The notes under the pieces: generated by a model
What the model saw: only the letters and a program-made list of their open reading frames with translations
Databases searched by the model: none
Told to the model about the DNA's origin: nothing
Part shown: one piece after another, positions 13,847 to 19,967 of the stretch
How the letters are laid out: each line of letters begins with the position of its first letter
Position numbering within the stretch: position 1 is the first letter of the stretch
DNA from: Mycetocola zhadangensis
GTDB lineage: Bacteria; Actinomycetota; Actinomycetes; Actinomycetales; Microbacteriaceae
Reading direction: 5' to 3'
Length of the DNA stretch: 64,000 bases
Assembly: GCF_003668565.1 (NCBI RefSeq)
Contig: NZ_RCWJ01000001.1
Location: 868,001-932,000, forward strand
Translations under genes and position numbers: made by a program

Positions 13847-14076
13847 CATGCCGCCACGTCGACTTAATCCGGCCGAACCCGAAGGTGGCGGGGTAGTGGA
13901 CGAAAACGTGACATAATGCTAATAAGGACCCGTTCAGGTTCCCGTGGCGTGCTCGTTGTGAAACGTGCAGCGAACTGCCCGGACTTGACATGGGTCCTCG
14001 TAATGTCCGAAAACAAAATCTGGGCCCACGAGCGGGTTCTGGCGACTTCCCAGCTCGGGGACTGAAAGGTGCTCTT

Positions 14077-15369
14077 ATGGCCACCAAGGCCGCACAAACT
14101 TCGGCAGAAGAAGAACAGACAACTGCGACAACAGCAGCCGTGAAGGCTCCCGCCGCAAAGAAGATGACCGCAGCAGCGAAAGCGAAGGCCGACAAGGCAG
14201 CAGCAGCCGCAGCGGCAGGCGCCGTCGACGCGCCTGCCAAGGCCGCTCCCGCGAAGCGTGGAGCGAAGAAGAAGGTAGCCGACGACGTGGAAGAGGCTGC
14301 CGCGGCTCCTGACGTCGCCGATGACGACCACGACGACGAAGAAGATTCGAAGACCCGCACGATTGCCACCGAGGCTCTCCCGCAGGGTGCCCTCGTGCTC
14401 TCCGCGACGGACGACGAGGACGAAGTTCCCGTCTATTCCTCCGCGATCACCGGCGCCACGGCAGACCCGGTCAAGGACTACCTCAAGCAGATCGGAAAGG
14501 TCGCGCTCCTCAACGCGGCTGAAGAGGTCGAGCTCGCCATGCGTATCGAAGCTGGCTTGTTCGCAGAGGACAAACTGTCTCAGATGGATGACGCCGCGAA
14601 GCGTACCCAGCTCGGTCGCGAACTAACCTGGGTTGCGAAGGACGGCGCCCGGGCCAAGAGCCACCTGCTCGGTGCAAACCTTCGACTCGTCGTCTCGCTC
14701 GCCAAGCGGTACACCGGTCGCGGAATGCAGTTCTTGGACCTGATCCAGGAGGGCAACCTGGGCCTGATCCGTGCCGTCGAGAAGTTCGACTACACCAAGG
14801 GCTTCAAGTTCTCGACCTACGCCACCTGGTGGATCCGTCAGGCGATCACTCGCGCCATGGCCGACCAGGCGCGCACCATTCGAATCCCAGTGCACATGGT
14901 GGAGGTCATCAACAAGCTCGCCCGCGTCCAGCGGCAGATGCTGCAGGACCTCGGTCGCGAGCCGACGCCTGAGGAACTCAGCCGCGAGCTCGACATGACT
15001 CCCGAAAAGGTCATCGAGGTGCAGAAGTACGGCCGCGAGCCGATTTCACTTCACACCCCGCTCGGTGAAGATGGAGACAGCGAGTTCGGTGACCTCATCG
15101 AGGACACCGAAGCCGTCGTTCCCGCTGACGCTGTTGGGTTCACCATGCTGCAGAAGCAGCTCGAGAGCCTGCTCGATTCCTTGAGCGAGCGTGAAGCCGG
15201 AGTCATCCGCATGCGCTTCGGCCTCGGTGACGGCATGCCCAAGACCCTCGATCAGATCGGCGACACCTTCGGTGTTACGCGTGAGCGCATCCGCCAGATC
15301 GAATCGAAGACCATGGCCAAGCTGCGTCACCCGTCACGGTCGCAGTCGCTTCGGGACTACCTTGAGTAA
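14077..15369 (+). CDS. sigA: Principal RNA polymerase sigma factor (RpoD/SigA/HrdB group)
   Basis: A 430-aa group 1 sigma-70 factor. The start at 14077 ([14 protein letters not shown]) is preceded by AAAGGTG. The first 130 or so residues are Ala/Lys- then Asp/Glu-rich and low in complexity, as in actinobacterial HrdB-type factors. Then come region 1.2 ([16 protein letters not shown]), regions 2.3-2.4 ([19 protein letters not shown]), region 3 ([15 protein letters not shown]) and region 4.2 ([15 protein letters not shown]). About 230 bases precede the gene; they hold TTGACA at 13985-13990, but no convincing partner -10 was found. The downstream murT start codon overlaps its last codons. Confidence 0.96.
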
Positions 15370-16657
15370 ACCGACCGGCCTGCACTACGTCCTTCCCATC
15401 CTCGCCGGCCGCGTGACGCGCTTCGTCACGCGGTTGCGAGGTGGCGGAAGCGCCATGCCCGGGGTTGTGGTGCAGAAACTCGCACCACACATCATGAGGG
15501 ATGTCGCCTCACAGCTTCCGTATGGCGTCGTCTTCGTCCTCGGGTCAAACGGCAAGTCGACGACGACCAACCTGCTTTCAGCAGTCATGCGTGAGCACGG
15601 GCTTCGGGTCTTCACTAACCCGTCCGGCGCGAATATGCCGCAGGGCATCGCCTCGGCGATCCTCGCCGAAACCAGTCTGACCGGACGCATGAATGCCGAT
15701 ATCGCGATCCTCGAGATCGACGAGGGCTACGGTGCTGCCATTGCCCGTCAGCTGAAGCCAGCGTCAGCTGTCATTCTCAACCTGCTCGTCGATCAGATCT
15801 ACCGCTTCGGTGAGCCCGACAAGGTCGCTCAGATGTTCCGCGGTATCGCCGCGGAAATCACGTCGTCGATCGTTCTCAACCGTGACGATAATTTCCTGGG
15901 CAAGCTCGGCAGCGAGCTCGAGGCCGAGGGTCGGCTGAACGTCGAGTATTTCGGTGCAACGGCCGAGGTGCAGGCTGCGGCCCCGCATGGCCAGGTGTCA
16001 GCTCGAGACTTCACCGACGCGCAAACCGTGAACTTCCGCACAGCGGTTGCCGAAGTTGTTCGCGCTGACGGGTACGACGCCCAAATATCCTGGGCTGGCG
16101 ACGTGTACGACATTCGGATGCCGTCTCGAGGACTGCACTACGCCGTCGACATCGCGGCAGCTTTCACCCTCGCTGCGCGGAACCTCGGTGACAAGTTCGA
16201 CATCACCCGGGCAATCACGGCAGTGCAGACCACGAAGACCGTGTACGGTCGCGGTGAGATCCTGCAGGTGAACGGCGTTGAGGTTGAAATTCTCATGCTG
16301 AAGAACCTCGCGAGTCTGCAACTCAACCTCGACTACCTCGAGGGAACGCCGGAATCCGTGCTGTTCGCCTATGACGAGTCGAGTAAGGACCCGTCGTGGC
16401 TGTACGCAGCCGACTTGAGCAAACTCGACCACGTGAACGTCATCTCCGGACCGAAGGGCGCCTTCGTAGCGCTTCGCCTCGCGTACGAGGGCAAGGACTT
16501 CGGAGTCATCGAGCCAGACATCACGAAGGCTGTGCAACGGATGCTTGATGGCCCACGGCCGACAAGCGGACGCCACACCTTCTTCCTCGACTATGACCAG
16601 ATGATGGCGACGCGCCGATACCTGGGCTACAAAGACCTGGAAGCGGGTGCAGCATGA
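15362..16657 (+). CDS. murT: MurT-like Mur ligase, divergent, cysteine-free
   Basis: ATP-dependent Mur ligase of the MurT family (central Mur ligase domain plus C-terminal DUF1727). Known MurT activates the alpha-carboxyl of D-Glu in lipid II and, with GatD, amidates it. I place the start at a TTG at 15362 overlapping the sigA stop, giving [18 protein letters not shown] (431 aa). The P-loop [12 protein letters not shown], the EIDEGY acidic site and the DQIYRFGE segment are intact, so ATP binding should be possible. Unusual: there is no cysteine anywhere, so the Cys4 zinc ribbon of canonical MurT is missing, and the usual KNPAG-like motif reads KNLAS. gatD overlaps its stop codon, and its product also lacks the catalytic cysteine. 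Confidence 0.85.
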
Positions 16658-17388
16658 CGATCTCTGTCCTGGAACTTTACCCAGCGCATCTCTCGCTGAA
16701 CGGAGACGTTGGAAACCGTACGGCGCTCGTTCGACGCATGCGGCTGGCTGGGCTTGACGTGTCTGAGCACGCGTACCACCCGGGTGACGAGCTGCCAGCT
16801 GCTCCGGACATCGTGACGATCGGAACAGGAACATCGAGCGCGCAACGGTCGCTCGCCTCGGACATCGCGCGCATTGCTCCGCTGCTGACTGAGTGGTCTG
16901 AGGCCGGCGTGGTGATCTTCGCCGCTGGAGCGGGCTTCCACCTGCTGAGTGCCTCCGTCCGGTTCGGCTCCGACGAAGTGATCCCCGGCGCGGGGGTTTT
17001 CGCCGGGTCCGTCGACGCATCGAGGCCGCGCATCATTACCGAAGCGTTCGCCGTCGAAAGCGACCTCGGCCTGCTCATCGGCACCGAAAACCACACGTCA
17101 GTCTTTGTCGGGCGCCCTGACCAGAAACCACTGGGGCGGGTGCGCCACGGCGTCGGGAACGGCGACGGCACTGATGGCGCCGTCACGGGGAACAGTTTTG
17201 GTACGCATCTGCACGGCCCGGCGCTCGTGCTGAACCCGAGGCTGGCTGATGACCTCATCACTCGTGCAACATCACGGGCAGGCGTCGATTACGTTCCCAA
17301 CGCTGAACATACGTCCCTCGACAAGACTGTCGACCTCGCACGCTCGATTCTGCTGGCCAAAGTGCCCGCCACCGCGCAGAAGTCATAG
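16654..17388 (+). CDS. gatD: GatD-like amidotransferase homologue lacking the nucleophile cysteine
   Basis: A 244-aa member of the CobB/CobQ-type class I glutamine amidotransferase family, partner of MurT. Family features remain: an N-terminal LNGDVGNRTALVRRM segment, ENHTSVFVG (compare ENH in GatD) and THLHGPALVLNP, which keeps the His-Gly-Pro of the active-site His. However, the nucleophile elbow reads VVIFAAGAGFHLL where GatD has an LAIC-type cysteine motif, and the whole protein contains no Cys. It should not be able to hydrolyse glutamine. It overlaps murT by 4 bases. A structural or substrate-channelling role in a rewired MurT complex is my inference. Confidence 0.85.
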   Translation: MTISVLELYPAHLSLNGDVGNRTALVRRMRLAGLDVSEHAYHPGDELPAAPDIVTIGTGTSSAQRSLASDIARIAPLLTEWSEAGVVIFAAGAGFHLLSASVRFGSDEVIPGAGVFAGSVDASRPRIITEAFAVESDLGLLIGTENHTSVFVGRPDQKPLGRVRHGVGNGDGTDGAVTGNSFGTHLHGPALVLNPRLADDLITRATSRAGVDYVPNAEHTSLDKTVDLARSILLAKVPATAQKS

Positions 17389-17400
17389 AGTAACCGCACT

Positions 17401-17436
17401 AAAAAACGCCGCCCGGGTCCCGGGCGGCGTTTTTTG
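17401..17436. terminator. Intrinsic terminator after gatD
   Basis: An 11-bp GC-rich perfect inverted repeat (17407-17417 with 17419-17429), preceded by A6 and followed by T6, directly downstream of gatD and facing the convergent DUF7455 gene. It can act in both directions. Confidence 0.9.
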
Positions 17437-17450
17437 CGGACTGAAGCTGC

Positions 17451-17885: not shown

Positions 17886-19967
17886 GTGAGTTCCGACTAT
17901 TCCGCCCGCCACCTTTCCGTTCTTGAAGGCCTCGAAGCCGTTCGCAAACGGCCCGGCATGTACATCGGGTCCACTGACTCCCGCGGCCTCATGCACTGCC
18001 TGTGGGAAATCATCGACAACTCCGTCGATGAGGCCCTTGGGGGACACGGCGATCACATCGATGTGGTTCTGCACCCAGACGGAAGCGTCGAAGTACGAGA
18101 CCGTGCCCGTGGCATCCCCGTCGATATTGAACCGAAGACGGGCCTCAGCGGGGTCGAGGTCGTTTTCACGAAGCTTCACGCGGGCGGCAAGTTCGGTTCT
18201 GGTTCGTACGCGGCGTCTGGTGGACTGCACGGCGTCGGCGCGTCAGTCGTGAACGCATTGAGCGAGCGGCTCGATGTCGAGGTCGACCGCGACGGTAAGA
18301 CCTGGGCCATGTCGTTCCACCGCGGTGAGCCGGGGATATTCGACGACAAAGGCAAGGAAGCGAGCCCGGATGCCCCGTTTGCGCCTTTCGAGTTCGGCAG
18401 CGAACTGCGCGTGGTCGGCAAGGTCAAGAAGGGCGTCACCGGGTCGCGTGTGCGGTACTGGGCTGACCGGCAGATCTTCACCCAGGGGGCTGCGTTCCAA
18501 ATGGACGACCTCGTGGGCCGTGCGCGGCAAACGGCGTTCCTCATCCCGGGCCTTGCCCTGACTATCGACGACAGGCGGTCGCCGGAAGGCACGTCGCACC
18601 TGTTCCAGTACGAGGGCGGCATTTCGGAGTTCGTTGAACACCTCGCCACCGACACCCCTGTGACAGACGTCTGGCGGTTGCAGGGCTCCGGAACCTTCAA
18701 GGAGACGGTGCCGGTCCTCAGCGAGACCGGCGCCATGGTGCCGACCGAACTGGAGCGCACCTGCGAGGTGGACATCGCTCTTCGCTGGGGCACAGGCTAC
18801 GACACCGTATCCAAAAGCTTCGTGAACATCATCGCGACACCGAAGGGTGGCTCACACCAGCTTGGTTTCGACCAGGGCCTGCTCAAAGTGCTTCGCGCCC
18901 AGGTTGAGGCGAACGCTCGCAGGCTCAAAGTCGGAAACGACAAGCTCGAGAAAGACGACGTACTTGCTGGGCTCACCGCGGTGTTGACTGTTCGACTGCC
19001 CGAGCCGCAGTTTGAGGGGCAGACGAAGGAGATCCTCGGCACACCCGCGGCACGCAACATCGTTGCGGCCGTTGTCACGAAAGCGTTGAAGGAACGTTTC
19101 GCGTCGTCGAAGCGGGACGACAAGGCGCAAACGGCACTCGTCCTCGACAAGATCGTGTCCGAAATGAAGTCCCGAATCTCAGCGAGGGCGCACAAGGAAA
19201 CACAGAGACGCAAGAACGCCCTGGAGAGCTCGACGCTTCCGGCGAAGCTTGTCGATTGCCGGTCCAGTGACGTCGCGAACAGCGAACTGCTCATTGTTGA
19301 GGGTGACTCTGCGCTCGGGACCGCGAAAAACGCGCGCGACAGCGAATACCAGGCCCTTCTGCCGATTCGTGGCAAGATTCTCAACGTCCAGAAGGCATCC
19401 GTTTCTGACATGTTGTCCAACAGCGAGTGCGCCTCGATCATCCAGGTCATCGGTGCTGGGTCGGGGCGCAGTTTCGACCTCTCTGCTGCGCGGTACGGCA
19501 AAGTCATCATCATGAGCGATGCTGATGTCGACGGCGCACACATCCGGACCCTTCTCCTCACCCTGTTCTTCCGCTACATGCGGCCGATGATTACTGAGGG
19601 GCGTGTCTTCGCGGCCGTCCCACCGCTGCACCGGGTGATCGTGATCAACCCGGGGTCCAAGCCGAACGACACCATTTATACGTACTCCGAGCAGGAACTT
19701 CACGCGGTGCTTGCCAATCTCAAGAAGACGAACAAGCGATACCTGGAGCCGATTCAGCGTTATAAGGGTCTCGGCGAGATGGACGCGGATCAACTCGCGA
19801 CGACGACCATGGATCGGCGCCACCGAACCCTGCGTCGCGTGCAGGTGCCGGACGCCGAACAGGCGGCGCATGTTTTCGAACTGCTGATGGGCAACGATGT
19901 TGCTCCACGCAAGGAGTTCATCATCGATAGCTCAGACCGGCTCAACCGGGACCGCATCGACGCCTAA
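17886..19967 (+). CDS. parE: Type IIA DNA topoisomerase subunit B (topoisomerase IV ParE / GyrB-like)
   Basis: A 693-aa ATPase subunit of a type IIA topoisomerase. GHKL ATP-binding motifs are EIIDNSVDEAL and GGLHGVGASVVNALS; the TOPRIM domain has VEGDSALGTAKNARD and SDADVDGAHIRTLLL; the C-terminus has RYKGLGEMDADQL. The start GTG at 17886 has no Shine-Dalgarno sequence, but TAGGCT at 17874-17879 lies 6 nt upstream. The A subunit lies just downstream in convergent orientation rather than in an operon. I name it parE because it is not next to recF/gyrA-type replication-origin genes; gyrB cannot be excluded without the rest of the genome. Confidence 0.9.
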   Translation: MSSDYSARHLSVLEGLEAVRKRPGMYIGSTDSRGLMHCLWEIIDNSVDEALGGHGDHIDVVLHPDGSVEVRDRARGIPVDIEPKTGLSGVEVVFTKLHAGGKFGSGSYAASGGLHGVGASVVNALSERLDVEVDRDGKTWAMSFHRGEPGIFDDKGKEASPDAPFAPFEFGSELRVVGKVKKGVTGSRVRYWADRQIFTQGAAFQMDDLVGRARQTAFLIPGLALTIDDRRSPEGTSHLFQYEGGISEFVEHLATDTPVTDVWRLQGSGTFKETVPVLSETGAMVPTELERTCEVDIALRWGTGYDTVSKSFVNIIATPKGGSHQLGFDQGLLKVLRAQVEANARRLKVGNDKLEKDDVLAGLTAVLTVRLPEPQFEGQTKEILGTPAARNIVAAVVTKALKERFASSKRDDKAQTALVLDKIVSEMKSRISARAHKETQRRKNALESSTLPAKLVDCRSSDVANSELLIVEGDSALGTAKNARDSEYQALLPIRGKILNVQKASVSDMLSNSECASIIQVIGAGSGRSFDLSAARYGKVIIMSDADVDGAHIRTLLLTLFFRYMRPMITEGRVFAAVPPLHRVIVINPGSKPNDTIYTYSEQELHAVLANLKKTNKRYLEPIQRYKGLGEMDADQLATTTMDRRHRTLRRVQVPDAEQAAHVFELLMGNDVAPRKEFIIDSSDRLNRDRIDA

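Follow-up and report, generated by a model that had tools for sequence, protein, structure and literature searches.

A MurT-GatD pair without the glutaminase cysteine behind sigA in Mycetocola zhadangensis: a candidate bridge ligase of group B peptidoglycan

The pair behind sigA in the window

The window analyzed here, a stretch of 64,000 nucleotides of contig NZ_RCWJ01000001.1 from Mycetocola zhadangensis (Microbacteriaceae), contains a murT-like and a gatD-like gene in a slot between a sigA/rpoD-like sigma factor gene and a parE/gyrB-like gene (Table 1). The TTG at position 15362, overlapping the sigA stop codon, is the probable start of murT, and the murT TGA overlaps the gatD start. Unlike the MurT/GatD lipid II isoglutaminyl synthases of Staphylococcus aureus, Streptococcus pneumoniae, and Streptococcus pyogenes, the pair lacks the nucleophile cysteine of GatD, its MurT contains no cysteine and hence no zinc ribbon, the asparagine pair of the adenine pocket is replaced, and the genes occupy a slot behind sigA. 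As argued below, the pair probably attaches a bridge amino acid to the peptidoglycan precursor.

The sequence-only reading of this DNA had described a 244-residue GatD-like protein without any cysteine and with another residue at the nucleophile position of the elbow, and both points are confirmed. With the window protein aligned to a fragment of S. aureus GatD, C94 falls on Gly92, which lies between a strand (residues 87-91) and a helix (93-97) in the predicted structure; the catalytic histidine is present as His187. Homology to GatD is clear, and a fold search with the predicted model recovered the GatD fold, which supports the function proposed below. The glutaminase of the window GatD is predicted to be dead. 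Against the NCBIfam model isoglutsynth_GatD the protein scores 59 bits, and the equivalog cut-off is 400; since this cut-off is reached by 0/249 family genomes, it does not discriminate here.

The same reading had raised the prospect of a second, Cys-containing GatD in the window genome. Genome profile searches found none, isoglutsynth_GatD and MurT_C each matching a single place; three other class I amidotransferase open reading frames (ORFs), each with its cysteine retained, look by eye like PdxT, PurQ, and HisH. A sequencing error behind the loss of the cysteine is ruled out, the residue being other than Cys in 86 family genomes and in all 79 readable loci of an 80-locus set (see below). 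The ratio of nonsynonymous to synonymous substitution rates (dN/dS) against five relatives is 0.05-0.22 for gatD and 0.03-0.18 for murT, which rules out pseudogene status and indicates that both genes are under purifying selection.

Table 1. Features of the sigA-parE slot, in window coordinates
Feature	Position	Strand	Basis or remark
sigA/rpoD-like sigma factor ORF, start as called in the ORF list	13990..15369	+	upstream neighbour marking the slot
murT-like ligase gene	15362..16657	+	Mur_ligase_M 43.2 bits; matches to PDB MurT chains
murT P-loop GSNGKST	15542..15562	+	column comparison, 53 Cys-less vs 49 Cys-type rows
murT Tyr..Asp replacing two adenine-contacting Asn	16139..16150	+	column comparison; second = S. 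aureus N267
murT Asp (KDPSW), equivalent of S. aureus MurT D349, kept	16388..16390	+	phmmer alignment and alignment
gatD-like gene, 244 residues, 0 Cys, glutaminase predicted dead	16654..17388	+	ORF
gatD Gly92 codon GGA at the place of S. aureus C94	16927..16929	+	alignment; predicted model
gatD His187, equivalent of S. aureus GatD H189	17212..17214	+	alignment
GC-rich palindrome between A run and T run, terminator-like, just 3' of gatD	17400..17437	+	read from sequence
parE/gyrB-like gene closing the slot	17886..19967	+	ORF; present in 21/21 stretches compared (20 others and the window)

A terminator scanner requiring a loop of 3-8 had no entry for the palindrome.

Cysteine-less pairs and their MurT in the family

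The distribution of the pair was followed in two collections. In a survey of 249 genomes of the family, the GatD elbow was read in 111 and the remaining classes were assigned by profile score (lowest Cys-type GatD read, 111.7 bits; highest non-Cys GatD read, 107.3 bits). The second collection, the 80-locus set, comprises the best 80 of 271 confirmed and genus-labelled loci from a MurT profile scan; among its members are Okibacterium, Mycetocola, Clavibacter, Curtobacterium, Rathayibacter, Leifsonia, Agromyces, Cryobacterium, Frigoribacterium, Agreia, Subtercola, Herbiconiux, Pseudoclavibacter, Plantibacter, Microcella, Rhodoluna, Pontimonas, and one Microbacterium. GatD was recognizable in 79/80 of these loci, and all 79 have a residue other than cysteine (68 Gly, 8 Ala, 2 Asn, 1 Ser); 10 of the 79 come from genomes that are also in the survey. 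Among the survey genomes, a non-Cys GatD was read in 63 + 9 + 14 = 86, the window included, and a Cys-type GatD in 29 (37 loci, 8 of them repeats), with 4 genomes in both read sets. L172 gave no GatD match, the elbow of L194 and L199 was unreadable, and L156 has a GatD fragment that is non-Cys in either alignment. By class, 173 genomes have Cys-less pairs only, 22 Cys-type pairs only, 7 apparently both, and 47 no MurT. Outside the family, an order-level search of 218 genomes gave 92 with a match (11 of them from the family), and 49/49 GatDs read from other families of the order have both Cys and His. The histidine, which the sequence-only reading had noted as kept, is indeed present in the window but is not general: it occupies its column in 41/63 family genomes and 48/79 loci of the 80-locus set, and is absent from about a third of the Cys-less class members read.

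The position of the genes also separates the two kinds of pair. Within flanks of ~1.5 kb around gatD, a range that would not reveal a sigA farther away, sigA directly precedes the Cys-less pair at 62/65 family loci (the 65 include three copies of the window locus) and 79/80 loci of the 80-locus set, and it was found at 0/37 Cys-type loci and 0/49 order-level loci of other families.

Not all dead GatDs belong to the window's class. A second lineage (11 loci, L204-L214) has a cysteine-rich MurT (5-8 Cys; L205 and L210 show zinc-ribbon motifs). Its GatD has the elbow FTHNA, in which His stands at the Cys site, and the His site is occupied by Ile or Leu. Other dead forms are L215/L216 and L217. 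Of these 14 loci, 12 adjoin sigA. A quick tree joined the main Cys-less class into one group (57 rows; Shimodaira-Hasegawa-like approximate likelihood ratio support, 100) and placed L204-L217 elsewhere. Two origins of dead pairs were favored by a log-likelihood difference of 17.6, with a P value of 0.087 for a single origin in the approximately unbiased (AU) test; this test used 92 rows, with 25 main-class rows drawn at random and 11 long, fragmentary, or duplicate rows (L217 among them) left out.

The window MurT matches the PDB MurT chains 6fqb, 7q8e, 6gs2, and 9sq9 and has the Mur ligase middle domain, the P-loop, and the carboxylate-activating residues. Its score for MurT_C (PF08353) is 20.3 bits, or 23.5 in the genome search, at a cut-off of 25. 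Lacking cysteine, it cannot form the Cys4 zinc ribbon, which is present in only some Actinobacteria (PMC6085368; cited papers are drawn on here and below as excerpts). Closer inspection of the aligned columns revealed GSNGKST in the window P-loop and GTNGKTT in Cys-type relatives. In the main Cys-less class the P-loop Lys, the Asn of the GAN motif, the Glu, and the Asp-Glu pair are retained, as is D349 in those rows that were displayed; in canonical MurT such residues serve the nucleotide, the acceptor carboxylate, and magnesium (PMC6085368, PMC6113224), the role of S. aureus D349 being described in PMC6113224. Two other sites have changed. In the loop along the proposed ammonia path, the Arg preceding DQ is replaced in 57/57 main-class rows and kept in 63/63 Cys-type rows. 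The second adenine-contacting Asn (S. aureus N267, whose substitution by Tyr inactivates the enzyme) is replaced by Asp in 54/57 main-class rows; the residue is Asn in the other three (L195, L198, and L200) and in 63/63 Cys-type rows. The contact role of both Asn in canonical MurT is taken from PMC6113224 and PMC6085368; the window has Tyr and Asp instead, and the second dead lineage has both Asn in 8/8 rows. From this pattern of kept and changed residues, carboxyl activation therefore looks intact and the ammonia side rebuilt, with nucleotide recognition altered in the main Cys-less class only. The Asn-to-Asp change may reflect the use of GTP; the three main-class rows with Asn and the second lineage weaken this detail only. 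In L196 and L220 (G245), MurT of the Cys-less class is split across two overlapping frames, perhaps by a frameshift or an assembly error.

Other occupants of the slot

MurT was found by profile in 202/249 family genomes; the other 47 have either no match or only matches as strong as those expected of other Mur ligases. A strong F420_ligase-family (CofE-like) gene (E value of 1e-114 or better) is present in 38/47 MurT-less genomes and 0/202 MurT-bearing ones; weak CofE-like matches occur in three of the latter (G049, G112, and G134). CofE itself, the coenzyme F420-0:L-glutamate ligase (PF01996), forms a bond between a carboxyl group and the amino group of an amino acid, which acts as the nucleophile. 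It belongs to a family unlike MurT and GatD, and the slot protein of L240 reaches 30.6 bits where the CofE cut-off is 180.65. Where the slot (L240-L256, L316-L333) was opened in 22 MurT-less genomes, the CofE-like gene was there in 18/18 carriers, the other 4 genomes having none, and an ATPgrasp_ST gene accompanied it in 14/18. In G040 the CofE-like slot lies on a contig that lacks sigA but continues into parE, and in G018 the gene stands behind a transaminase gene. The MurT and CofE-like states both occur within ten genera (g6, g8, g44, g53, g54, g68, g70, g73, g77, and g78). A MurT hidden in the 47 genomes is improbable: NF045635 matched 15/47 at an E value of 0.001 or better (best, 1.6e-7), the three matches opened (L221, L222, and L226) being MurE, MurE, and MurD by eye and the remaining ones lying above 1e-5.

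Two further arrangements were seen around the slot. L192 and L193 have a Cys-less MurT-GatD adjoining an ATPgrasp_ST-like gene, which may represent a transitional form linking the two slot types. In L215 and L216 (G049 and G112), a diverged CofE-like gene directly precedes the third kind of dead MurT-GatD, and in L216 sigA lies upstream of both.

Racemase-like and transaminase genes are also found at some of these loci. An alanine racemase-like pair (one or both genes) stands beside MurT-GatD at 26/80 loci of the 80-locus set and, with shorter flanks, at 21/65 family loci; its full-length partner is present in 11/18 CofE-like slots, and none was found beside 37 Cys-type or 50 order-level loci. 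An EctB-type diaminobutyrate transaminase occupies one Cys-less slot (L156; 590.7 bits, cut-off 552.2), and similar genes occur in two CofE-like slots (L331 and L333). By profile, all 249 genomes have a racemase match and the slot racemase is inseparable from the housekeeping Alr, but two or more matches were found in 21/38 CofE-like genomes versus 2/22 Cys-type-only genomes. The halves of the racemase-like pair (L112:6036-7843, L153, L316, L317, and others) are complementary in catalytic residues: partner 1 has the pyridoxal phosphate lysine in 37/37 and lacks the catalytic Tyr, and partner 2 has the Tyr in 27/27 and the Lys in 0/23 readable cases. Judged by these residues, the pair seems to be a racemase that is active only as a heteromer and that may serve to provide the bridge amino acid.

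FemAB ligases are the bridge-ligase family of group A walls and use aminoacyl-tRNA and a stem amine, and they would therefore not be expected to make the D-Glu alpha-carboxyl bond. They matched in 16/22 Cys-type-only, 1/7 both-kind, 9/173 Cys-less-only, and 8/47 MurT-less genomes (Cys-type-only versus Cys-less-only, Fisher P = 1e-12, with shared descent ignored); the profile search of the window genome gave no match. FemAB matched in seven of the nine MurT-less genomes without a CofE-like gene. Five genomes of g45 (G045, G108, G159, G202, and G240) have no MurT and 5-7 FemAB match stretches each.

Proposed function and alternatives

We propose, with a probability of roughly 0.7, that the pair is an amide ligase of the MurT type that retains a dead GatD as its structural partner and adds a bridge amino acid to the alpha-carboxyl of D-Glu. 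MurT would phosphorylate this carboxyl group of D-Glu (or 3-hydroxy-Glu) in the lipid-linked precursor, and the bridge amino acid (D-Dab, D-Orn, Lys, or Gly, depending on the genus) would attack the acyl phosphate through its amino group, taking the place of channelled ammonia. The resulting bond would be the defining bond of group B peptidoglycan. In other family members the unrelated CofE-like ligase, usually with the adjoining ATP-grasp gene, would fill this role from the equivalent slot.

A precedent for a dead GatD is the S. aureus C94G mutant, which has the same Cys-to-Gly change: it no longer uses glutamine, uses ammonia at pH 8.5 and not at pH 7.5, and its MurT still needs GatD (PMC3266927). 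Hence, a dead GatD can support MurT chemistry with a nucleophile from outside. Unlike the mutant, which was made and tested with glutamine and ammonia, the change in the window occurs in nature, is widespread, and goes with changes in MurT. Published statements assign several genera with the pair to group B: Subtercola and Agreia are B2gamma and Frondihabitans B2beta (PMC5945732), Rhodoluna, for which a D-Ala-D-Dab peptide is described, is B2beta (PMC4156110), Herbiconiux is B2gamma and contains both D-Dab and L-Dab (PMC10011130), and Clavibacter is B2gamma (PMC5358740). Microbacterium walls contain D-Orn, L-Lys, or Dab, depending on the species (PMC10757982). The earlier view of group B walls as typical of Microbacteriaceae is thus borne out for six genera of the 80-locus set, by genus- or species-level statements from which the sequenced strains may differ.

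The sequence-only reading had left the choice between a bridge ligase and an ammonia user. The genomic context favors the former, because in relatives the slot holds amino acid ligase-like, racemase-like, and diaminobutyrate transaminase genes and because the pair alternates with a CofE-like ligase, Cys-type pairs and FemAB co-occurring elsewhere. Several observations weigh against our proposal. The family does not use one enzyme, Cys-type pairs being read in 29/249 genomes and MurT missing from 47/249; both kinds apparently coexist in seven genomes, in 4 of which the second copy was read; FemAB matches occur in nine Cys-less-only genomes; and two g47 genomes (G047 and G110) gave no MurT, CofE-like, or FemAB match in the profile searches. 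Furthermore, the window slot has neither racemase nor transaminase and its genome only one Alr-like match, the Fisher tests ignore shared descent, classes outside the 111 genomes read are profile scores, and the AU test does not reject one common origin for all dead pairs.

It is unlikely, although conceivable, that the ligase acts elsewhere, placing an amino acid or amine on another stem residue or on a carboxyl group outside the wall. We infer the acceptor, like the nucleophile and the nucleotide, and binding of lipid II is uncertain even for S. pneumoniae MurT (PMC6085368), which leaves room for this idea; this MurT has retained the GAN Asn and the Asp-Glu pair, however, which in canonical MurT act on the acceptor carboxylate, and FemAB is distributed opposite to the Cys-less pair. 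We consider it quite improbable that MurT still makes D-isoglutamine from free ammonia with GatD as a scaffold. The C94G enzyme does so at pH 8.5, and D349 is kept, as is the His in the window, but the activity of that mutant is absent at pH 7.5 (PMC3266927), and loss of the Cys went together with changes in the ammonia-path loop and in most adenine pockets. In addition, the slot is otherwise taken by a CofE-like/ATP-grasp set in the company of racemase-like and transaminase genes, and the family has separate Cys-type pairs. Ammonia from a different glutaminase partner is very unlikely: the window genome has further class I amidotransferases, but the three found resemble enzymes of other pathways, and the dead GatD is still retained beside MurT. 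Decay of GatD toward a functionless pseudoenzyme, suggested by the 47 genomes without MurT, can be dismissed almost entirely in view of the low dN/dS of gatD, its recognition in all but one locus of the 80-locus set, and the CofE-like ligase that accompanies most losses of MurT.

A wider picture is more tentative. It is possible, though we would not count on it, that one slot has been switched repeatedly between a glutamine-independent MurT-GatD that makes the D-Glu alpha-carboxyl bond of group B (the main class maybe with GTP), the second dead lineage with its zinc ribbon and adenine pocket, and the CofE-like/ATP-grasp set.

Group B peptidoglycan has long served as a taxonomic marker. Among the literature matches listed, we found no description of a Cys-less GatD or of a group B bridge ligase, though one may exist in subscription papers or preprints. 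The pair provides a concrete candidate for the bridge enzyme, its sister genomes offer an independent alternative, and the ten genera that carry both slot states hold natural controls. If our proposal is true, an amidotransferase was turned into a ligase through the loss of its ammonia supply, and the label lipid II isoglutaminyl synthase would seem to be wrong for most Microbacteriaceae that carry such genes.
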